The translations under genes and the position numbers were made by a program. A stretch of DNA of 64,000 nt from Norana najaformis (lineage: Eukaryota; Annelida; Clitellata; Crassiclitellata; Hormogastridae), in NCBI GenBank assembly GCA_964023275.1, contig OZ029918.1, positions 15,869,861-15,933,860 on the forward strand. Direction: 5' to 3'. The notes beneath the pieces are model-generated. The model saw only the letters and a list, made by a program, of their open reading frames with translations, did no database searches and had not been told where the DNA came from. Of the stretch, positions 2,741-42,316 are shown piece after piece; within the stretch, counting starts at the first letter, position 1, and each line of letters starts with the position of its first letter.

Positions 2741-4630
2741 TTGCCTAAAGGATTCTGGGTATGTGCGGTCGGTGAGGGTTAGTCGGTCGGTCGGGTGGCC
2801 GTCGGGACTGACTCTTTTTTGCGTGACAGACAAAACAGTATGTATGCCTGGACGGGTTTGTGCGCCGAATATATATTAGACAACGGACTCCGTTGCCTGT
2901 CCTGAGTTGTACCGTTCAAAAGCAATCGTAAAGCTGCCAGCAGGTAAGACGCTCTCTCGTCTTGTCTTTTGGCACAGCTGGATGGAGAGGGGGCTCGTCC
3001 AGTCAAACAGGGGCTGTAGGGGCGGCCGCGTGAGGGTAGGCGGGCGGGTGGGTGTAGGGTCGGATACTGTTCTCTGTGCATATCGGGTGAATACAGTTGC
3101 TGATGCTGCCGTTACCGTCTTTTACGCGTGTCGATTTGAAGAATGGATATACACAGTGGTTCAACGCCGTCAAACAAATCCAAAAACACTTCTGTTGTGC
3201 AAAAACTTATTTATGACAGGCGCACCCACACCACTGAAGCGATGCCTGGGCCAAGGAGATTATCGCATCGGACACAGTACAGGCGTTTAGTGCCGAGGCT
3301 TCTTTTAAGGTCGTTAGAGTTACCACGGTTCAGTTTATCGATAGTTTATAGTTCGGCTTCTGTGCGAAGTAGCATTATTCAGTGTTTTGTAGTCATGCGC
3401 TATTATAATCTTAGATTCTCGGTGGTGCCGCCCTGGTTTGTCTTTCAAATCCCTGTCAAAAGCTTACCTTCAACGATAAGCATCTCCATGGAAACCGCGT
3501 TGCCCTTTGGTCACCGTTCACGCACAGTGGGTGGTCGCGCCTTCTGCCTTTCTCCTCATTTTTGCTACTAGTACAGTTTAGCATAGAGCTGAAAACGCAG
3601 CCTACAGAACTCTTCCATCTTGCACAGGTCTAATCGGAAACAACTCCTTATACAGATTGCCATGTTTACATCATATTTCTTTAAATAACAGGATAGGCCG
3701 TCGAAATGGTCCTCAAAATGTACCTGAAAACCCTAGACGTAAATTGTGCTGTGTTTTATTGTATATATTATGTGTGGTATGAATCGTTGCTGTTTAAATG
3801 TGCAATATGCAATCTACTGCGGGTTAATCGTAGCTGTCGCTTGCTGTAGGCAGTTGCTGAATTATCTTGTTGGCTGGGCGCTATGCCTATCGAAGCGGAC
3901 CAGAAGGATCCCTCCTAGGGTAGCGTATAGTATACTTCAATGGCAAGGCCGTGCAAGACCCTGGGTCAGCAACTGTTGCTGTCTGGAACCTCAGCGGCAG
4001 CGCGCTCCGTCTGCTCTTCGTACCTCCGCTGCGCATGCGTGCCTATGCATCGCTCGCTGCAGCGCCCTCTGTATGCACGTGCGTTTATTAGCGTCCCGCT
4101 TCCCGCCTATCGGAGTTGGCTGCTGAGGAAGTGACGAGGGTGATGATGCTTCGGATGCGAACTGTGATGATCCGGCTGCTGCTGCAGCTGCGCCTGCCTA
4201 CTACATCTTTCGGCGCCTAGCAACTGACGGAGATGTGGTTCTGTGGAAAGCGTATACTCTTCGTCCGCGAATAAAAGATTATTCTTCGAAAACGCTTCAG
4301 CCATATACACAGCTGCCAGGCATCGAAGGGGCGAAGCTTATGCAACGACGCATAGTAAACACGGACGCTGTCCGTATCAATACACGCGCCTGCGATCGTC
4401 GAATAGTTTTTATAGAACAGTAATACAACACGCTCATCGGTGTTTTTCATGGACCACAAATTGCGCTGCAAAGTTATTATTATATCTAAAATTGATGAAT
4501 TTGTTTGCAAAACGTAGGTCAGTGCCTAATTATACAAAGCAGACGAAGTTACTGTGGGATTCTCGTCACCATTTCACAGGATGTACAATGAACTGAGTTT
4601 TTCTAGACGCCTCTGTTTTCGCCTTTCCAG
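2741..4630. other. anonymous CpG-containing sequence
   Basis: Several open frames of 60-140 codons occur on both strands, but none shows a domain, a codon pattern or splice context that I can support. A GC-rich patch lies at about 3960-4220. No promoter or repeat array is evident. Confidence 0.35.
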
Positions 4631-6832: not shown

Positions 6833-9055
6833 TTGGCTAAATAGTATCGGCACTGTATGTATAAATCCTTTATCTATACGTATCTAGTCTACATTGATCG
6901 CTTCTGTAGTGGTTTTTGTTGCACTTGCAAGGCCTCGACTAAAGACAGAGGGTGCATTTATCAACAAGGACAACCAAACATACTGAACAGGTTCACACAA
7001 TCTTTGATCAGTGCAGGACCGGTTCAAAACTCTTAATGGACATTTGGGGCGAAAGGGTTGATAAGGACGAAGACTTATAGGTTGCCAGGTATAACAACTG
7101 ATACACAAAAGCAAATTGTCTGCTGGCCACATTTCGTTTTTGGTCCCCACTTTTATTTACTAGAGGGATCAATGCGTGCACAAACAAGTCGCCAACCCAA
7201 TGACTCATCAGTATGACGTCGCGGAAAATTCCAATGCAAAGGCGCGTTTAAAACTTGTTTACTAATAATCAGCGTAATATTACGTTCAAATCCAGATACA
7301 TATATACATATCTAAATACATATCTATGGCCCAGGTTTACAAAGGCAGAATGTTTATGGCCTTCTATGACACCAATATTTATAAGCATAGGCTACGTGTA
7401 TAGACAAGGTTAGGAAATTATTTTTCCCACTTTTTAATTTTGTAGGGTAAGACGAGGAGGCCTAGTGGTATGCGAGTGTAGCCCATTGGCCTACTGGCCC
7501 CTTGCGATGAGTGATGACACCCCTATAAATGTACACCTAGAGGCCTGTACACTTTTATGGGTTTATTTCATAAGTGGGGCGGCTGTGTAACTATGAAACT
7601 AAGGACTGACAGAACCCGCAACTGCGGCCAGAGACCCTGGCCAGAACCTGAAAAGGAGGAGGCTCACTGAGAGCTTGATAAAGTACGAACAGGCCCAGAG
7701 AACCTAGAGAAAGTGCAGAGCGGGCAGAAACTGACAGCAAATTCCAGAGCGTCAAACCAGCAACAGGGGAATCCCCGAACCTGTGGCTGTTCTGGCACTG
7801 GGTAGAAAAGAGTCCAAGGCCCCGATTAGTTTGTGGACTGCTTATGAGTCTGATGGTTGAACGACTATCGAAGTTTAGAATACGTCTGCTTCACCCCACC
7901 GTCCTCAACTGTGCCGCCCGAGAAGCGGTCAGTCTACCACAATTAGCCTATTTCATATAACACATTATGTGACAGTTACACTCGGCTGACTTCCTCTCGA
8001 GGAAAGGCTGATGTTCAAGGTCATACTCCTAGGATGGGTTTTGTTGGTCGGCTCCGCACGGGCATACATCAAGAAGCTCTGTGTTCCTGTCTCGAGTCAA
8101 ATGGGTCGGCGATCGTTGCGCTCTCTTCTGCCTGTGGAGATATGCAGAAGCCGCCATTTGGCATATCAACTCGAGGCAATCCTGCTTCCTCCTGTGTTGT
8201 ACTTTCTCCTCGGAACAGTCTTCTATTTCATATACGTACTGTTTTACTTAACTCGGTTCAACATTCTCAAGCCACTTTAAAACCCACCTTTTGTATCAGT
8301 CGGGTAACACGTGTGCAGCGGTTTTGAGAGATTCCAAAGGGCGCTATATTAAGTGTCTTGATGCAAACATATATAAATACATGCAAAGATAAGTTGGTCT
8401 GTAAACAGTCCAAATGTATCGCTTTAGTATATTGTGAGACATATTTTAAACTGGACTAACTGTTCGTTTAGATGCCAATGTAATTATTCCTGGATTGAGG
8501 ATCAGTGCTGAAATTTTTGTGTTTTATTATGGCCCTGGCCAGGGAGTTCTGAAGCACATGAAATTTGTGCGGATTTGTCTTCGTCGGTCAGAAGTGACTT
8601 AAAGTAATCAAAACGACTAGAAACTATGGCGTTAATTAGCTGCTAGTGAAAGTAAAGCATACGAGATCTGATTCTTTGGAAACGTCGTGTATGAAAGTAA
8701 GCAGTTGCTTTGCACATGGCCTGAACATGATCTAACAAACTAATGATCGAATCAAATACTGTATGATACCCAAATCAAATGATGACACAGTGCGAGGGCC
8801 AACCGATCCACCAGGGTGAATAAAAGTAGGCTAATTAGCAAATCAAAATAAAGAAGCTGTTTGTTTGTGAACTGCAGAGGAAATTCGGTGTTGGACGGGT
8901 TCAACAGAATCTTATGAAATGCAATCCAAGAATGCAACTCTTCATAAAATGGGGTCAAAACAGCTTCTCTTGGCATGCCTTTGAGTGGAAATCTTTGCTC
9001 TCTGCTCTGTGCCAACACATGTGTAAATGTATTTCTATACTTATTCATAGATTTA
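6833..9055. other. anonymous intronic sequence
   Basis: No recognisable gene or element. An open frame at 8011-8280 (+, 89 codons) has hydrophobic stretches at both ends, but there is no supporting context. The stretch at 7600-7800 is GC-richer than its surroundings and lacks a coding signal. Confidence 0.35.
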
Positions 9056-9112: not shown

Positions 9113-9522
9113 ATATACAAATATGCCTGGTGGTAGACTGTAACGGTTGCTTAAACTTTCCAATATTGTTTAGTTAGTTTATTATCTAGAGACTTAATTA
9201 ACATGACGCTTTTTCAGTTATATATTTAATCGTTATTTTTGGTAAAATTAAATTGAGCCCTGTTCAGGTGCTCTTACTTGTACACAAATATCGATCGTGT
9301 ACCTGAAAGTAGGTTTTTCAGTGATTTCATCGGTTGAGACCCATCATACCCGCCGTTGTAGCGTCCCCCATTTGTAGGTCCCAGTTCATGGCCGCAGTTG
9401 CCCGAGTCCAGATAAGCGAGCTCTTATTTATGTCTCTCATTTACTTCTGCCTAGATCGATTCAACTTTAGTTCTATTCAGTCAATTTTACTTCCATTACA
9501 CCGTGTAACAAATTTTTATTTA

Positions 9523-9560
9523 TTTTTGTTCCTGGGTAGTAAGTGTTATTTCCTAATTTC
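9523..9560. repeat. outer half of left inverted repeat of the 9.5-13.3 kb element
   Basis: Matches the reverse complement of 13291-13328 at about 33 of 38 ungapped positions, including CCTGGGTA and AAGTGTTATTTC. On the right side this motif is continuous with the inner repeat. On the left it lies 1.4 kb outside it, as if a later insertion split the terminal repeat. Confidence 0.7.
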
Positions 9561-10982
9561 TGTAGCGATCCTCCGTTTAATTCGCATTTGTATTTGTTAA
9601 ACTCAGCTGAGAACAGCTTACTTACCTACTCAGTTAGTGTATAGTAGTTTAGTGTAGTTTGTTTGTAGTAATAGATTTGTGTGCAGAGGCTGTAGTTAAG
9701 ACAGTGTTGTAGGCAGACCAACGTATGAGTAATAGGCCTAGCTAGATTATAGAACATGGCCAGCTTAAGTAGGAACATGGTTTAATGAATTGTTTGGGAC
9801 TGTGCCACGTCAGCACGCCGGATTACAACCTACATGACGATTTTACAAAAGAACTAATCTGATATGACGGAGCGAATTTGAAAACTGAACATTGGCTGAT
9901 GTCACCGAGCAGACGACAATTATAATGGACGGTTGGCATTGGTCATGCGCAAATCATCGAGGACGGTTGGCCGCCATTGAAGAACCAAACGAACTTTTAC
10001 GGGTATAAGAGGAGGCTTCCTGTGTTCAGTCGGAGGGATACAATCGTTGGTACATGTTGGTATAGACGTGTAGAAAAACCTTCGAAAACCTCCTGGGAGT
10101 TTGAGGTAGAACGTTCCTTAACTTCGATCATCATTCGTATTAGAAGTGTCCTAAGTGTGTAGGAACTTCGAAAGTAACTGGGATTTACCTGTTTACGGAA
10201 GCGGCGATAGTCGTGTCGAACTGTGAGAAATTCGTTATCCACGCAAAGGATTGTGATCGTATCGATGGAACTTATCGTTCGATAACGTTAAGCAAACACG
10301 CAATTGCGGTTTGACGAGAAAAGAGCCAAAGAAAGAGCACGTTTTTTTCGTCGTTTGGGAGCGATCTTAAATTTCTACGAACTTTCATGTAATCAAGTCG
10401 GAAAGTTTCAAGAAAGAAAATGGCGAATATCCATCGTCTGCCTACAGATGCATATTGTCGACATGTGCCTGGAGATGGACTTTCGTGAACGATACCTCGA
10501 GATCAGCAATTCTTCTCAAGAACTGAGGCCTGGAAAGTCAATAGCTCATCGTGAGGGAGGGAAGCAATTAAATTCTCTCTTTTAATTGACTTATCTAGTT
10601 TAGTAGTTGTCCTGCAGTAGTCGCAGAATGAGGTAGTCGTAGAGTGATACTCGTTTAATCGAACCGAAACATACTGTCTTGATTAATAGTTCATTTCTAT
10701 AATAAAACTGCTTAAACTTTGCAGTTAGTTTGAACGAGCCATCATTTCATCAAGATCAAATTCACCATTTGAATTTGTTATGATAAGACTTGGGATAGAT
10801 GTATATTGACAGAAGTCTTTAGCCATTTGCATGTACCCTTTCCCAAGGTCTTATAACTGAACGAGAGATCATGCCCTCTAGGGATTGTGATTTAAGTTAC
10901 AATCTGGCACAGAGGTAAAGGTTTCAAAGGGTACAACCGGAAGTAGCCCGAAAGGTTTGCTACATTTTACAAGGTACAATTG
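9561..10982. other. apparent insertion splitting the left inverted repeat
   Basis: About 1.42 kb separates the outer and inner halves of the left repeat, which are adjacent on the right. No open frame, LTR pair or family signature is recognised. It has several CAGTTTAG/TAGTTTAGT words near 9630-9670 and 10590-10610, and an AATAAA at about 10700. It may be a non-autonomous element. Confidence 0.4.
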
Positions 10983-11028
10983 CCTATGACTCTAAAGTAT
11001 AGAAAATGGCTATTATTCCCCACAAACT
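10983..11028. repeat. inner left inverted repeat
   Basis: Matches the reverse complement of about 13249-13294 without gaps at about 36 of 44 positions. Perfect cores are GTATAGAAAATG, TTATTCCC and CAAACT. Together with the outer pieces this brackets the heat-shock promoter and the open frame. Confidence 0.75.
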
Positions 11029-11137
11029 CGAAGCCTACTTTTATTCACCTTTGTTGCTGGTTTGATATTCTGAAATTTTTCTACTTTACAGAACATTCAA
11101 GATGAATTCAGTGCTGAGTAAACTTGGAGTAACTGCT

Positions 11138-11212
11138 AGAACTTTCTAGAACTTTCGAGAATATTCTAGAATATTCTAGAACGTCCAAGAACCTTCTGGA
11201 ACTTTCCAGAAA
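11138..11212 (+). promoter_or_regulatory. array of 15 contiguous heat-shock pentamers
   Basis: Read in 5-bp steps, the sequence alternates nGAAn and nTTCn for 15 consecutive units. Only unit 10 (gTCCa) departs from consensus. Heat-shock factor binds three or more such inverted pentamers cooperatively, so this is an exceptionally long element. It ends at the base where the TATA box begins and lies about 80 bp upstream of the broken open frame, which it presumably drove. Confidence 0.9.
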
Positions 11213-11220
11213 TATAAATA
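11213..11220 (+). promoter_or_regulatory. TATA box (TATAAATA)
   Basis: Directly adjoins the last heat-shock pentamer. A second TATAAAA follows at 11225. A TCAGTT word near 11253-11262, about 35 bp downstream, is in a suitable place for an initiator. Confidence 0.8.
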
Positions 11221-11294
11221 GCAGTATAAAAACAGTAGCCTTAAGCCCACCAGTTCAGTTTAGTTCTAGGTGCCTAAATGGATACATATCTGAA

Positions 11295-13085
11295 ATGGTA
11301 TCAAGAGGCTGCAAGCTTCCGGCAGACGCGTTTTGCTATGTCTGTGGCCAATTTATCAAGATAAGAGCGAAAAGGTACTCCTTGGAAGCATCTGCTAAGA
11401 TGTGTGAAGCCTACAAGGCATATTTCGGCATGCCTGTCGGGGATCAACACGAACCCAGGGCACTTCATTTCACCTGCGAGCACTGCAAAGGGAGGATAAG
11501 ATGGACAATTGATACTCGCTTAGATAGCGACATTTTATGTCGTTGAGATTTCATATTTTTAAAATTTTCAATGTTATTGAACAAATATATGTTGCGAGAA
11601 TGTCTTGCACATTAGTCTTTGGTGAAATACATTTATTTTGTTATGATCACAATTTCATCTTGTTCTTTCGCTGACAACTCAAGCAATTGCTACTTCTGCA
11701 TGGCGGATCCTTCCAAACTTCGGACTGGCAAGAATGCACCTGCTATCACGTATCTGGACCTTCCTTCGATTATCGTACCGGTGCCACTCTGCCCTGAGCT
11801 TCCCGTACCAAACTCCTCCTGAGAGAAAGCAGCCGTCTTCAGAAGACAGCAGTAAGTCAGAGAGCGAGGAAGACGTTGGCGATCCAGATTACAATTTCCG
11901 AGCTGAGGTGAGAACCCCATACTATCCCGACCAAAAGATCTCAACGACTTGATCAGAGATCTTGGTCTCACCAAGTCCAATGCCGAGCTTTTGACGTCTA
12001 AGCTCAAGCAGTGGAATTTGTTGGATGAAAGTGTGCAAGTCGCAGATCAGAAGAATCGTCATCACGCTTTTCCCAGCTTCTTCACCAGTCAAGATGGGCT
12101 CTGCTTCTGCCACAATGTGACCGGTCTGTTCGAGGCAATTGGAATCGACTGTAACCCGAGCGAGTGACGTCTCTTCGTTGACAGTTCATGCAGAAGCCTC
12201 AAAGCTGTGCTGCTTCATAACGGGAACAAGTACCCGTCTCTTCCTCTAGCTCACTCGGTGCACCTCAAAGAGGATTACAACAGCATCAGAAGCTTACTAG
12301 ACGCCTTGAAGTATGATGAGTACGGCTGGGAGGTAATCGGACACTTCAAAATGGTAGCATTCCTGATGGGTCGCCAAGGCGGTTTTACCAAGTTTCCCTC
12401 CTTTTTATTTTCCCTTTGGGACAGCGGGGAAAAGAAGATGCACTACAACAGGCGAGACTGGCCACATTGGACCGAGTTCTCTGAGGGGAGGAACAACGTC
12501 AAGTGGGAGCCACTGGTGGACCCCAGAAGGTGCCGCTGATGCTACCACTGCACCTCAAATTTAGCCTTATGAAACAAGTTGTCTCAGCTCTAGATAAGGA
12601 TTCGCAGCCTTCAAGTACCTTCACGAGTTCTTCCCTAAGCTGTCTGAGGCAAAGGTCAAAGGCGGTGTCTTCGTCGGACCACAGGTAAAGAAGATCCTGG
12701 AGAACAAAAAATTCCCCAATAAGCTCACTAGGAAGGAGAAAGCAGCTTGGAACAGCTTTGTCGCAGTGGTTAGGGGCTTCCTGGGCATACACAAGGCTAA
12801 AACCTATGTGGAGCTGGTTGAGATTCTGGTGAAGAACTACGGCCAGATGGGGTGCAGGATGTCCCTCAAAGTTCATATCCTTGATGCTCATCTTGTTAAC
12901 TTCAAGGAGAACATGGGAGCGTACTCGGAGGAGCAAGGCGAAGGCTTCCATCAGGATATACTGAATTCTGCACGTCGCTACCAATGACAGTATAACGAAA
13001 ACATGACGGGAGACTACATTTGGGGCTGATTCGTGAAAGTGACTTACAGTATAATCGTAAATCTCGAAAAACTACTAACTTCTAA
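11295..13085 (+). pseudogene. broken transposon-borne protein of unknown function with Cys pairs
   Basis: A decayed copy of one long protein, about 560 codons when intact by my estimate. In order: an N-terminal CYVCGQF Cys pair and a FTCEHC pair (11295-11500); about 150 bp of unrelated sequence; NCYFCM (about 11685); a Pro/Ser/Glu linker ending VGDPDYNF (11875-11905); IRDLGLTKSNAELL (11950 on); CFCHNVTGLFEAIGI; VDSSCRSLKAVLLHN (about 12175-12220); FKMVAFLMGRQGGF; a PLHLKFSLMKQ block (about 12545); and a C-terminal SEEQGEGFHQDI, then DYIW, ending near 13085. Lesions include frameshifts near 11820, 11940, 12530, 12605 and 13026, a stop at 12165 in place of Trp, and a stop after RYQ at 12985. 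From memory, intact relatives are multi-copy uncharacterised proteins in many animals. The acid, Cys and inverted-repeat context suggests a transposase; this is inference. Confidence 0.8.
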
Positions 13086-13248
13086 ATCTTTATTGGTCAT
13101 TTTTGTATAACTGTAGGGTAAATACATGTTCATATTGATTCATGTGTTGTTGTTTTCTTTATTTGTATGAAAACACGCAAATTCGCCCGTTTCTTCATTG
13201 GAAATAGGTACATTTCGAAATATCATTGTCCTGGTCACAAAAAGAAAG

Positions 13249-13328
13249 TTTGAAGGGAATAACAGACATTTTCTATACCTTTTAGGCATAAGCAAGTAAG
13301 AAATAACACTTAATACCCAGGCACAAAA
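13249..13328. repeat. right inverted repeat
   Basis: Its reverse complement carries, continuously, both motifs found on the left: the CCTGGGTA..AAGTGTTATTTC half (13291-13328) and the GTATAGAAAATG..TTATTCCC half (13249-13294). The exact outer end and target-site duplication could not be fixed by eye. Confidence 0.75.
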
Positions 13329-13329
13329 A

Positions 13330-15265
13330 TTATGTTAGTGTTATTATTCAACCCATTCATACCTACTGTCTCTCTTTCATCTAAACCTAAATTCGACCTG
13401 ATTTACAATCAATTCATTTCAAATTCATCGTAATGTAACATACCAGAGACTGCCGCCGTTCGCTCATAACTCATCAGAGCTTTGACCTTAGCGGCTACCG
13501 GTAAAATAATTCCGAGAACTACAAGTCTTCCTTCGTACCTGTAAACAGCCGACGAATGGCTCTTCGCGGATTCTCTGGAATTAGATTTAACTCAGAGCAA
13601 AGTCAGAGTGAACCCCGTCGCGCGGGGTAGAGCAGGCTTCGTTTTAAGATGGTCTTTTATCTGCAGTTCACTGTTAAGCGCCTCCAACACAAATAGAATC
13701 CGCAACACGCATATTTATTTGCCTATTGGTTGCTTCAGCCTTACTTCGATATATTAGACCAGTTGTATAAACGGCGTCAAAATAAAATATAGCCTAGTAA
13801 GAACCCATAGGGGTTATACGTTGTGGCCAAATAAACTAAGAAGAGCCATTGTTTTCCTACTATTAATGTTACGCTACCATTAAATGTGATTTTATTTCAA
13901 GGCGCCTTCATAACGAGATGATCGGCAATCCTGTAAATTTTGCTAGCCTATGGTAATGTTGGAAAGACTTTTATAATTATGATTTCGCATTACTTAGGTT
14001 TATGCCAGAACGATGCTGCAAGCCTGCTACCCCGCCCCTAGTCGCCGCAGTGCTGGTTATGGTGGGGGTAGGATTTTCCAAGCTTTAACTGGGGTCTCGT
14101 AACGGCCAATGGGAAGTTTACTCTCCCCTCAGCGCCTCAGTATGCGATACTTAAGGTATCTATGTATATTCTATTATTATTCTAAGAGTTCATAGATTTT
14201 ACAAAAACATTTAGAGTTTGATGAACGTTCGCCGTTCGGTCGTTTCAGTTAAAATGTCTCGGTTTACTAGCAAAACATCGTGCCAGCCGACGTCAGAACT
14301 GCCCAGCACGTGTTCGATGCGTGACAGATAGACGCATCTAGCGAGCACAAACAAATCAATAATACCATGACGTCATAAAAATTTCCGATACAAAGCATGC
14401 TTACTCAACAATGTAAAAAGTATGTCCACATGTGTACTTTTATGCAATACAATGGATCAATGGCATTCAGTCCATTCATATCACTGCAGGTAAAAGGTCT
14501 ATTCATATTCCCAAGACTGCCATAATTAAAACCAGTACTAGGCCTACACATGCATGTTGCCAGAGTTTGTTGACGTTGATAGGCCTACATTTATTCATAT
14601 TGTCAAACATTATTCGCACTGCAGTTGTTATTATGACCTACCGCGATGCAAATGTTTTCTTAGACAAACCAAGTCGCGTCGCTATATGATTTTTAACAGT
14701 GGAAAAGTTTTACTGGTACAGAAACGTGAGCAGATTAGATGCCTGCAGCCAGCAAAGCATCTTCCTCTACCCGCCATATTCATTGCGCTGCATTCAGCTA
14801 TCGGCTGGGCTTCCGCGAACTTAAGAGCATCAACGATACACCCAGTGCGATGCTTAGCGGCAAATTGCCACCGATCATTTCAGGCCTGCGGGATAGACTT
14901 ACAGCGGGAAACTGTGTAGATAAGTCAGTGCGTGAGAAAATGACTCTCGCTCCGGGTTTGATGCTTTCTTTCTCATTCTCGGTTGTTATCTGTGTAATAC
15001 AAGGCTTAGATACGTGGTGCATCAGTGGCGCCGCAGGCAATGAAATGGTACTGAATAGCTGACTGACCACAAAATCTAAGCTCTGTCTCAAGATATTCCA
15101 AAATGTCAAGAATTTTAAGTGCATTAATAAATATTGTAAATATGTGAGCTCAGTTAAATTAAGAGCCAGCATTTAGGCAGGTTAATAATTAAAGTAATCT
15201 ATGCCTGCAAAAATGAGCTAAATAATTCGTTATTACTGTAACTTTAATTTAAGATTTATAAAGCG
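13330..15265. other. anonymous intronic sequence
   Basis: Nothing recognised. A C-rich/G-rich patch lies at about 14020-14080. Open frames at 14432-15172 overlap on both strands and show no domain. Confidence 0.35.
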
Positions 15266-22640: not shown

Positions 22641-22984
22641 TGGTTTCCTGTTGTGAATTAATGAATTGATTGATTGATTGATTGATTAAAATGGTGACAA
22701 GCACCAAATGCAAGTAGCTCGCTAGTAGTGACTTTAGTAATTGTAATTTGCAACCTCTTTAGCGCTGATATTAATGCACAAAGCATCAAAATCATGAGCC
22801 GCAATCAGATCAGTATCCAGAAAGTCAGTCCGCTAAAACAGTGGCAGCCTGGGGCGCGAAAAGACAACTGAAAAGGTATTGTATCGTATATGATAACTTA
22901 TATAGCGTTTCTTACAGAACAAACTACTCAGAGGCACTTCCAGCAGGAGTGCCCCTGGGAAATAAGAACCTCTTTAAACAACGA

Positions 22985-23085
22985 GCTGACTGAGCTCTAC
23001 CTGAGCGCCTGTGAATAAGCTGGTCCCCGCGGCGCGGCTTTCGTTGGGCGCTGTAGAAATCTCGGAATTACGATTAAGATTATCA
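22985..23085 (+). mobile_element. LINE 3'-tail copy, inverted against the adjoining LINE
   Basis: Reads GAGCGCCTGTGAATAAGCTGG..GGGCGCTGTAGAAATCTCGGAATTACGATTA on the plus strand, while the reverse-transcriptase frame that begins right next to it is on the minus strand. Read on the minus strand it adds a false C-terminus to that frame. Confidence 0.7.
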
Positions 23086-24002
23086 CCAACAGTGACCCTT
23101 GCACAAAACGATAGCGGAAGTTCATTCCACAGAGAAGGCCCAACAACAGCAAAAGCCCTCTGTTGAGCAAACGAGGACTTAATACGAGGAACAAATAGAT
23201 CCAGACGATCTAGAGAACGTAAACGACGGGATGAGGTATTAGAGTGTGGAGGCCGAATAAGATCACAAAGGTATTTTGGAGCCTGGCCCATGCGAGCTCT
23301 AATTACCAGTGACAATAGTTTAAACTGAATACGAGATTGGATAGGGAGCCAATGAAGTTGCTGAATTATATAATCAGAGATATGAGAGAAACGAGGAAGA
23401 CGTGTTATTAACCTGGCCACAGAATTTAACACTGATTGAAGGGAAGACAGCCGATACTTAGGCAAATCAGCAAGTACAGAGTTGCAGTAATCAATGCGAC
23501 AGCATATCATGGGGTGAATCATAGTAGTAAAGACAGAGGAAGAAACAGAACGACGAACAACTCTTAAGCGCCTTAATTGGTAGTAACAAGACCGAGTCAA
23601 ACTAGATACATGGTTTGCGAAGGTAAAGTTACAGTCAAGTATAACGCCTAGATTACGAACACTAGACGAAAACATAAAAGAGGGGAAAGCTTCAGATAAG
23701 CAAGAATAGTCAAGCTGAGCAAGACAGTATTTAGAACCAAACCACATCAACTGAGTCCTAGCAGGATTAAGGCGAAGACGATTGCAGGACATCCAATGTT
23801 GAATATCATGAGTCAGGGCATCAATCTTACCAACAAGAGCAAGTTGCGCAGACGGAGGTCCTTGAACAAAAGCCTGGACATCATCAGCGTACAAATGACC
23901 AACAGCCAAGTGTTTCGCAGAGGGAAGGGGATATCAGCAGTATACAAAATGTATAAAAGAGGACCAAGGACCGAGCCTTGGGGAACACCAATATCAAGGT
24001 AA
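23085..24002 (-). mobile_element. CR1/L2-type LINE reverse transcriptase, copy A
   Basis: The best-preserved LINE piece here: a minus-strand frame open for about 280 codons. It starts with GVPQGSVLGPLLYILYTADIP (palm motif B, around 23990-23935), then after a one-base shift HLYADDVQ, the catalytic YADD (around 23885). Next are NPARTQLMWFG, VRNLGVILD, the RIDYCNSVLADLP motif, ARLITRLPRFSHI, LHWLPIQSRIQFKL and VGPSLWNELPLS. The reverse transcriptase copies element RNA into the genome. The 5' side is truncated inside the palm domain. The 3' side is cut before the usual FKxxLKTxLF end, where an inverted tail adjoins. Confidence 0.9.
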
Positions 24003-32715: not shown

Positions 32716-32779
32716 TAGATGTTCATTGAAACCTGTTCCTGAGGTTCTGTTGCATCCAGCTCTGCTATATCATAATTTG

Positions 32780-34515
32780 TTGGTCATTCAGTATGCAATA
32801 GATTTCTTCTTCCTAGTTCTTCATCTCCAGTCTTAGATTACTTTCAGCCAACAACTCTTGCAGAGGTTTGCAGACTTATATTTTCTTCACCTGACAAAAG
32901 TTCTGTCCTAGGCACCATTCCCACTTCTTTCCTAAAAGAATGTTTTGATGTCCTCTGTCCAACCATTACATCAATTATCAATTTCTCATTGCTTGAGGGA
33001 TCCTTCCCATCTGCTTTTGCTCATGCCATAGTTCATCCTCTGCTAAAGAAACCTTCTCTCGATTCAGGTGACCTGTGTAATTACATCTCAGCATTAAATT
33101 TTGTATCTAAAATTCTTGAATGGGTAGTTTTGAATCGTATGCAAACCCACCTTTCTTCCAACTCACTAATCTCTCCATTTAAGTCTGCATACCTCAAGTT
33201 TCATGTAACAAAATCTGCCCTGCTTGCTGTTTATAACAACATCATGTGCTCCATGGATAAGGGTAAGATGACAGCACTTGTTCTACTTGATATGTCTGCT
33301 GCCTTTGATACTCTCGACCATTCTCTGCTTGTGCATCATCATGGTTTGGGGTTTCTGTTCCCACCCTACATTGGTTTACTAATTATCTCAGCCCTCACAC
33401 TCATTCTGTATATCTAAATGGACATTATTCAGCTAGTGCTTTGTTGACTTGTGGTATTCTGCAGGGTTCTGTACTTGATCCTCTTTTGTTTACATTATAC
33501 ACAACACCTTTAGGTACACTGCTAGACAATCATTCACAGGGATATCATTACTGTGCGGATGACACCCAAACCTACATTTCGTTTGACAGTTTGTCTTGTC
33601 TCTCGTCTGTGCAGCTGTTGTCTGATGCCTTTGAGGAGCTGTAGTCTTGGATTAACCCGTTGAAGACTGAATTTCTACTGCTTGGCACTCCACAGCAACT
33701 TAAGAAGTTTGAATGGCTTAAATCCTTGCAGCTGGGGGACTCACTCATTGAGTTCACTGATGCTGCTCGTGACTTGGCTGTTGTTTTTGATTCTGTCATG
33801 TCTCTCACAAACTATGTAAATGGTATATTTGTAAGGCGTCATACATGTATATTCGTGACGTATGCAGAATTAGGCGTTATATCCCCATGTCTTCTAAAAT
33901 ATCATTGGCTAATGCATTGGTCTCCAGTCGCCTTGACTGTTGTAACTCAATTCTTGTTGGTATCACAAAGTCAAACATGCAGAAACTCCAGTGAGTTCAG
34001 AACTCTTTGGCTAGAGCCATAATAAATACTTCAAAATATGAGCATATAACCCCTGTGCTTAAATCTTTACGTTGGGTTCCTATTCAACAAAGGATTTGTT
34101 TCAAATTGGGACTTACAGTTTATAAAACATTGAACTCTGGCCAACCAGAGTACTTAAAAACAGTCTTTATTCCCAAGACTTACCATTATTCTGCAAGGTC
34201 ATCTGATTGTCTCTCTCTGGTCATACCTTTTGGACTAGAACTGTTCTTGGTAAACAGGCTTTTTCGGTTGCTGGACTTAAATTCTGGAACTCCCTCCCTG
34301 TGTCTGTTTGTTCTGTTCAGTCGCTTTTGTCATTGCGTTCTCAACTTAAAACTTACCTTTTTCAAATTGCTTATCCACCGTAAGCTGCCTCTCCGTCCTG
34401 TGGACTGACCTTCTGGATATTGACCTGATTGGGGCTTTGCTTTGGTGCGCCATCGGTTGATGCCTTGTGCTTTAGACCCTGGCACATTAGAAATTGCTAA
34501 TTATTATTATATCCA
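32780..34515 (+). mobile_element. CR1/L2-type LINE reverse transcriptase with 3' end
   Basis: The longest LINE copy. In order over several frames: an SSVLGTIPTSFLKECFDVL fingers region (about 32890 on), FKSAYLKFHVTKSALL, palm motif A VLLDMSAAFDTLDHSLL (about 33280), motif B GILQGSVLDPLLF (about 33450) and motif C YCADDTQ (about 33555, Cys in place of the usual Tyr/Phe). A TAG stop at 33642 precedes NPLKTEF. Then LMHWSPVALTVVTQ, LRWVPIQQRICFKLGLTVYKTL, DCLSLV and LDLNSGTPSL follow in shifted frames. The 3'UTR carries CGCCATCGGTTGATGCCTTGTG and ends in TTA/ATTATTAT repeats, as CR1/L2 tails do. The endonuclease is absent. Confidence 0.9.
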
Positions 34516-41479: not shown

Positions 41480-42070
41480 GTGTAAAGTTCTTACTGATCA
41501 GTGCTTCAGTCACTTCTGATACCATAAGACAGTGATGTGTATACATGTAGGTATTAATTTATTTGAACAATGTTGGACCACCTACCTGATGGCATAAGGA
41601 ACATCAGCCCAAGAAGTGCCAGTCAGTAACTGCAACCTATTACAGCAAGCACTTTATTCAGCTGTCGTCATTCCTCAGTGCAACACAAACCAGGACTCTG
41701 AATGTAGTGTCATCAGCCAATCAAGGACAAGATTCCACAGGTCAGGTTCTGCATGCGTGCAAGGACTCTGATATCATTTAGGTTCTTAGGGATCAGCACG
41801 GAGAAGCTTTTAAAAGGTGCTGTACAAAATATCTACTGCATTACGTTGCATTACAGTGCCAGGGCTTTGGGATAGTGGACACTGATGTAAAATAGAGCCT
41901 CACATATCCGTAGTGAAAAAGCATTAATTTCACTGTCCAGGGCTAACTTTCAACAAGGGATGATTTCGATAGACCTGGGTTTGAAGCCAGTACATATCAG
42001 AGCTTTCTGTTTACTTTAGCATGAACCAATATCAAAATATATCGCTGTGTGCAATTAAGGTAAAGTAACT
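41480..42070. other. CpG-poor sequence, possible SINE head
   Basis: A weak B-box-like CTGGGTTTGAAGCC occurs at about 41969. Nothing else is recognised. Confidence 0.3.
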
Positions 42071-42071
42071 G

Positions 42072-42316
42072 TTATTTTGCCTTCTGACAATATAACTTCG
42101 TTGATGTTGTTGTCATTCTACCTTCTGACGATATAATTACATCAATGTTGCTGTTATTCTACCTTCTGACAATATAATTTCATCACTGATGCTGTCATTC
42201 TACCTTCTGACAATATAATTTTATCAATGATGCTGTCATTCTACCTTCTGACAATATAATTTCATCAATGTTGCTGTCATTCTACCTTCTGACAATATAT
42301 TTTCATCAATGATGCT
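42072..42316. repeat. 41-bp tandem repeat, about six units
   Basis: The word CTTCTGAC recurs every 41 bp from 42081 (42122, 42163 and on). The unit contains CATTCTACCTTCTGAC, AATATAATTTCATCA and a TG(A/T)TGCTGT variant site. Identity between units is high. Confidence 0.95.

Follow-up and report, generated by a model that had tools for sequence, protein, structure and literature searches.

A 64,000-nucleotide stretch of the Norana najaformis genome (assembly GCA_964023275.1, contig OZ029918.1, 15,869,861-15,933,860; hereafter the window, whose positions serve as coordinates) harbors an old, dead and broken DNA transposon which, judged by published hallmarks and by comparison with the descriptions of named members, very probably belongs to the Chapaev3 group and moved by a cut-and-paste mode. 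Directly upstream of its core promoter, an array of contiguous heat-shock elements (HSEs) was identified (Table 1). We consider it moderately likely that this member of the RAG1/Transib clade evolved a promoter of 13 to 15 contiguous HSEs and that its jumping followed heat or proteotoxic stress. The first-pass annotation of this DNA had proposed an undescribed DNA transposon. The DNA transposon with its terminal inverted repeats and promoter was retained, but it can hardly be called undescribed, since the hallmarks of Chapaev3 fit.

Table 1. Features of the transposon copy and its flanks in the window.
Feature	Position	Strand	Remarks
Left target-site duplication	9496-9498		TTA, preceded by A; by eye, following the rule from the copies
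Left terminal inverted repeat, outer part	9499-9560	+	starts CACCGTG
Younger insertion, long terminal repeat (LTR)-like	9561-about 10965		TGTAGC...GCTACA; splits the left terminal repeat
Left terminal inverted repeat, inner part	10979-11028	+	
HSE array	11138-11212	+	15 contiguous pentamers, nGAAn/nTTCn alternating; 14 perfect
Core promoter	11213-11261	+	TATAAATA at 11213; second TATA box at 11225; initiator-like TTCAGTTT at 11254
First exon region	11295-11543	+	N-terminal Cys-pair domain (ZAD-like, weak)
Intron remains	11544-11681	+	start of exon 2 (about 30 amino acids) apparently deleted in this copy
Second exon, broken transposase	11682-13044	+	pieces in three frames; stop codon 12165-12167
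Right terminal inverted repeat, continuous	13247-13340	-	ends GTG
Right target-site duplication	13341-13343		TTA, followed by T; by eye, end misplaced by the end-anchoring script

A probable heat-shock-element array upstream of the transposase gene

Searching the 608-Mb genome (17 contigs) with the transposase stretch yielded 40 scored matches (window included) from 300 candidates, and all 39 other copies, being 82-89% identical to the window copy, were retrieved for comparison. In a first scan, 11 of 12 array units fitted the HSE pattern, and 20 mononucleotide shuffles of the window never exceeded 5. Of 16 units, 7 or more were found in 29 of the 39 other copies, and 7 also in a further copy (L051). 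The ten copies without the array were judged to be 5' truncated or internally deleted. The right-flank stretches of all 39 copies (position 3996 on; that of L020 still being partly element) reached a maximum of 4 of 16 units, and the window outside the transposon a maximum of 5. Promoter anchoring failed for 11 of the 40 copies; a TATA box was present in 27 of the 29 anchored ones (window included), and their majority sequence features 12 perfect units out of 13 directly before TATAAATA. The longest perfect run comprised 2 to 7 units in individual decayed copies and 9 in the window.

The same stretch could also represent a decayed 10-bp tandem repeat resembling HSEs by chance and having no role in expression, for which the result of Tandem Repeats Finder (10-bp period, 7.6 copies, 77% matches) would be fitting. 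However, variation between units falls on the spacers and leaves the GAA/TTC cores almost unchanged: for the majority sequence, 1 of 39 core positions varies versus 9 of 26 spacer positions (p = 7e-4), and in the window copy 1 of 45 versus 11 of 30 (p = 1e-4). Moreover, the array abuts the TATA box directly and precedes the transposase start codon (ATG at 11295), so that such a chance origin is regarded as unlikely.

Among two inspected upstream regions of HSP70-type genes of the host, one contains a perfect 3-unit HSE that stops 24 bases short of a TATA box, likely the promoter of that gene. Several observations speak against a heat-shock function of the transposon array: about 0.9 kb lie between this TATA box and the first coding match downstream, the second HSP70-type region has no HSE run of 3, and three copies of a second Chapaev3-like family in the same genome are devoid of the array (best 5 of 16 units), meaning that it is not a general feature of the Chapaev3 group.

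A demonstrated precedent for a heat-induced transposase is Helitron1_CE of C. elegans, which is induced through HSF-1 and likewise carries many HSEs in its transposase promoter, 14 at one copy (PMC6927752). It differs from the transposon studied here in being a rolling-circle Rep-helicase element rather than a cut-and-paste DDE element, and heat induction of the latter is deduced from sequence. Nonetheless, transcription of the transposase gene was fairly probably heat-inducible through the putative HSE array. No earlier description of a heat-shock switch before the transposase gene was found for Chapaev3, and the word 'heat' was not found in the main text of PMC4079192.

Element boundaries, terminal inverted repeats and target site

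The two inverted-repeat pairs reported in the first-pass annotation were recovered at 9522-9561/13291-13330 (40 nt, 88% complementary, E 2e-7 within the window) and 10980-11028/13247-13295 (49 nt, 82% complementary, E 8e-7 within the window). Together they represent one continuous right arm facing a single left arm split in two by an insertion. Comparison of the copy ends revealed that the arms reach farther outward than previously assumed, placing the element between 9499 (CAC) and 13340 (GTG).

Alignment of the copies, which had been suggested for finding termini and duplications, recovered CAC/GTG ends and a 3-bp TWA duplication located between A and T, as is typical for Chapaev3. The inverted repeats were confirmed to be shared: of the 39 other copies, 23 were found to have both arms, 12 to have one, and 4 to have none. 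Left ends begin with CAC in 21 of 27 anchored copies and right ends with GTG in 13 of 27 (for the window, where the script set the right anchor wrongly, GTG was recognized by eye); deviating ends were taken as decayed or wrongly anchored. Of the 20 copies anchored on both sides, the window among them, 7 have identical 3-bp flanks, compared with 2.19 expected by re-pairing (p = 0.0018), the window being scored as a miss due to its misplaced right end, although TTA is visible on both sides. Duplication lengths of 2 and 4-7 bp gave no signal in the same 20 copies. Furthermore, A precedes the left triplet (position -4) at 23 of 27 anchored ends, and T follows the right triplet (position +4) at 21 of 27. 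Copies L041 and L043 share one of the flanks behind these target-site counts.

The insertion is a separate LTR-like repeat, younger than the transposon. Its family is represented by 47 genomic matches from 40 scored candidates (342 at first look), the window's own included and one copy sometimes split into several pieces. The long ones are 75-83% alike, and most end at query positions 1404-1408 (window 10965-10969), three at 1413-1416. The 14 bases between the apparent end of the insertion and 10978, before the left repeat resumes, were assigned to neither, and no clean duplication was demonstrable around the insertion. In addition, a 33-nt inverted match (82%) connects 8800-8832, outside the element, with the subterminal positions 11032-11064, representing a fragment of another copy or chance.

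Transposase gene and its relatives

All protein blocks of the first-pass annotation (CYVCGQF, FTCEHC, NCYFC, VDSS, LMGRQGG, and SEEQGE) are present, but they fall in more than one frame instead of the single open frame assumed. Compared with the alignment of relatives, the window copy has lost both the C(2)C pair and the second conserved Asp, and stops or frame changes occur in the tblastn pieces of each of the 39 other copies. Net element length is about 2.43 kb.

Protein searches with the window pieces identified 747 proteins at E up to 0.001, the best being a 562-aa fish protein (P0001, 76% identity), and a profile search identified 2010. Of the latter, 120 were listed. The first-pass annotation had described the relatives as uncharacterised multi-copy animal proteins, which was supported: among the 120 matches listed of the 747, names are 'uncharacterized', 'hypothetical' or 'unnamed', save one sponge protein with a RING-ligase name. 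Sources named there comprise fish, sturgeon, lamprey, frog, tunicate, mantis shrimp, shrimp, wasp, moth, and sponge.

Across the relatives, C336 (76 of 77), C339, H385, H493, and H498 (77 of 77 each) are conserved and L384 is invariant, corresponding to the C(2)C, LH, and H(4)H motifs of Chapaev3. The DDE catalytic residues, also a Chapaev3 hallmark, are located on a predicted RNase H fold, for which a structure search, as had been recommended, returned Transib and RAG1 as best matches (10-16% sequence identity over the structural alignments). N-terminal Cys pairs are present as well and show a weak likeness to zf-AD (ZAD) under the Pfam cut-off; in Chapaevs and Chapaev3, the N-terminal zinc finger was named 'Chapa domain' (PMC4411706). 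Based on these features, we infer catalysis and zinc binding for the ancestral transposase.

Probable assignment to the Chapaev3 group

The Chapaev3 families Merrow and Garfield were described as two-exon elements with repeated horizontal transfer and with ends of the form CAC..GTG (PMC4079192). Their TWA duplications sit between an A and a T, and their motifs are C(2)C, LH, and H(4)H. Ends, target duplication, motifs, length, and intron of the transposon studied here match this description, pointing to the Chapaev3 group with the two-exon Merrow/Garfield lineage as nearest by these hallmarks. According to Zhang et al. (2014; PMC4079192), Merrow in particular is 2451 bp long, has its intron close to the 5' end and encodes a transposase of 78+484 aa, agreeing with the net length determined here and the 562 aa of P0001. 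Its patchy spread over fish, lamprey, and arthropods is also similar; Merrow was compared by its published description. Family membership was defined in that paper by at least 80% DNA identity to the query element over 300 bp. Garfield, sharing ends, duplication, motifs, and two-exon gene, was described from a Cotesia bracovirus (PMC4079192), and a Cotesia wasp relative (P0043) was found here. The ends, duplication, motifs, multicopy state, decay, and the array across copies can be read directly from the DNA.

Some points weigh against this placement. It relies on published hallmarks instead of a tree that includes named Chapaev3 members. Likewise, the clear match to a named transposase group, which was to refute the first-pass proposal, was obtained by hallmarks and not by an aligned named sequence. 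Only 7 of the 20 flank pairs kept exact duplications, because the copies are old. In most other copies with exon 1, the exon gap lies near P0001 residue 66/67 and thus departs from the published 78+484 split of Merrow (PMC4079192), which may be a matter of prediction. Foldseek alone gave weak results, the best being P element and ISCth4 (E 0.011).

An affiliation with a distinct CMCT-clade superfamily, be it a new one, as the first-pass annotation supposed from the lack of resemblance to known transposase superfamilies, or the unclassified animal transposases of the CNEST type, is considered improbable. No Pfam family matched the transposase at or above the cut-off, the best PDB sequence match reached only E 0.37, and the names of the relatives listed are uninformative apart from the sponge protein. 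Within the CMC supergroup, CNEST was described as the sister clade of Chapaev and Mirage (PMC12810828), and as an alternative home it slightly lowers the otherwise high confidence in Chapaev3. However, all tested Chapaev3 hallmarks for ends, duplication, and motifs were found, and host ranges overlap, with sturgeon, lamprey, and Cotesia here compared with the table in PMC4079192. EnSpm/CACTA was rejected, as CACTA ends are lacking and left ends are mostly CACCG or close variants.

That the transposon is itself a true Transib or RAG-like element with a close relationship to the V(D)J recombinase is very improbable. Transib and RAG1 share the RNase H core, the C(2)C and H(4)H site, a similar predicted fold, and CAC-starting ends with the transposon, and CAC..GTG ends resemble the heptamer of the recombination signal sequence. 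Yet the C(2)C/H(3-4)H site is common to the entire CMCT clade, sequence identity is as low as stated above, and the duplication is 3 bp long: a 5-bp duplication was seen in 0 of 20 copies, as against 5 bp (CCAGG) at TransibSU (PMC4411706).

Age, phylogeny and a second family

Among 36 copies with more than 1 kb aligned (window included), the mean pairwise difference is 0.129 and the closest distinct pair differs by 0.095, while codon positions 1, 2, and 3 differ by 0.066, 0.059, and 0.080. High divergence and near-equal differences between codon positions are as expected from a single old burst followed by mostly neutral decay. This pattern, together with terminal repeats, target duplications, and dispersed copies, leaves a host gene family scarcely credible, even though relatives occur in many animals and some of them have long open frames. 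L018 and L019, located about 70 kb apart on contig C4 in opposite orientation, are identical over the compared transposase stretch and probably represent a duplicated segment; they and the pair L041/L043 with its common right flank reflect either segment duplication or artefacts of the assembly.

In a tree built from 79 rows and 196 columns, the window copy paired with the fish protein (97/74, a fork not firmly supported) within a clade of 11 rows (97/87), of which those with a named source come from fish, one frog, and one mantis shrimp, the others being unnamed; P0043 was placed outside this clade. As the tree is at odds with host kinship, horizontal transfer would fit the spread of the family, as published for Merrow.

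The second Chapaev3-like family, with a single-exon reading, was represented by 77 scored matches (6382 candidates at first look), of which 72 rows are 49-50% identical to P0001 at nearly full length, 70 of them without stops. Its copies L048, L049, and L050 are about 99% identical to each other with intact frames, so that the family looks recently or still active.

Proposed mechanism and significance

The working ancestor would have encoded a transposase of about 560 aa, with a zinc-binding domain at the N-terminus and an RNase H catalytic core of the RAG1/Transib type. After binding to the long CAC..GTG inverted repeats, this enzyme would have cut out the element and inserted it anew at A-TWA-T sites, where 3 bp were duplicated. 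Most likely, host heat-shock factor would have turned on transposase transcription through the HSE array upstream of the TATA box. Bursts after horizontal transfer were perhaps also tied to heat or proteotoxic stress of the host.

The supposed new superfamily accordingly gains a probable address in Chapaev3, distantly related to the RAG1 recombinase. The remaining novelty is an animal cut-and-paste transposon whose transposase gene is seemingly wired to the heat-shock response. If this is true, the link to stress known from Helitrons and LTR elements would also hold for the clade from which RAG1 arose, and dispersed copies would have carried ready-made heat-shock promoters across the host genome.

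Other features of the window

An open frame at 32776-33417 that weakly matches reverse transcriptase (PF00078, E 4.8e-6, under the cut-off) is likely a remnant of a non-LTR retrotransposon. On the minus strand, a 319-aa open frame (22974-23933) without Pfam match gives the impression of the C-terminal part of a non-LTR reverse transcriptase. Finally, Tandem Repeats Finder detected a 41-bp tandem repeat at 42069-42316 (6 copies, 88% matches).
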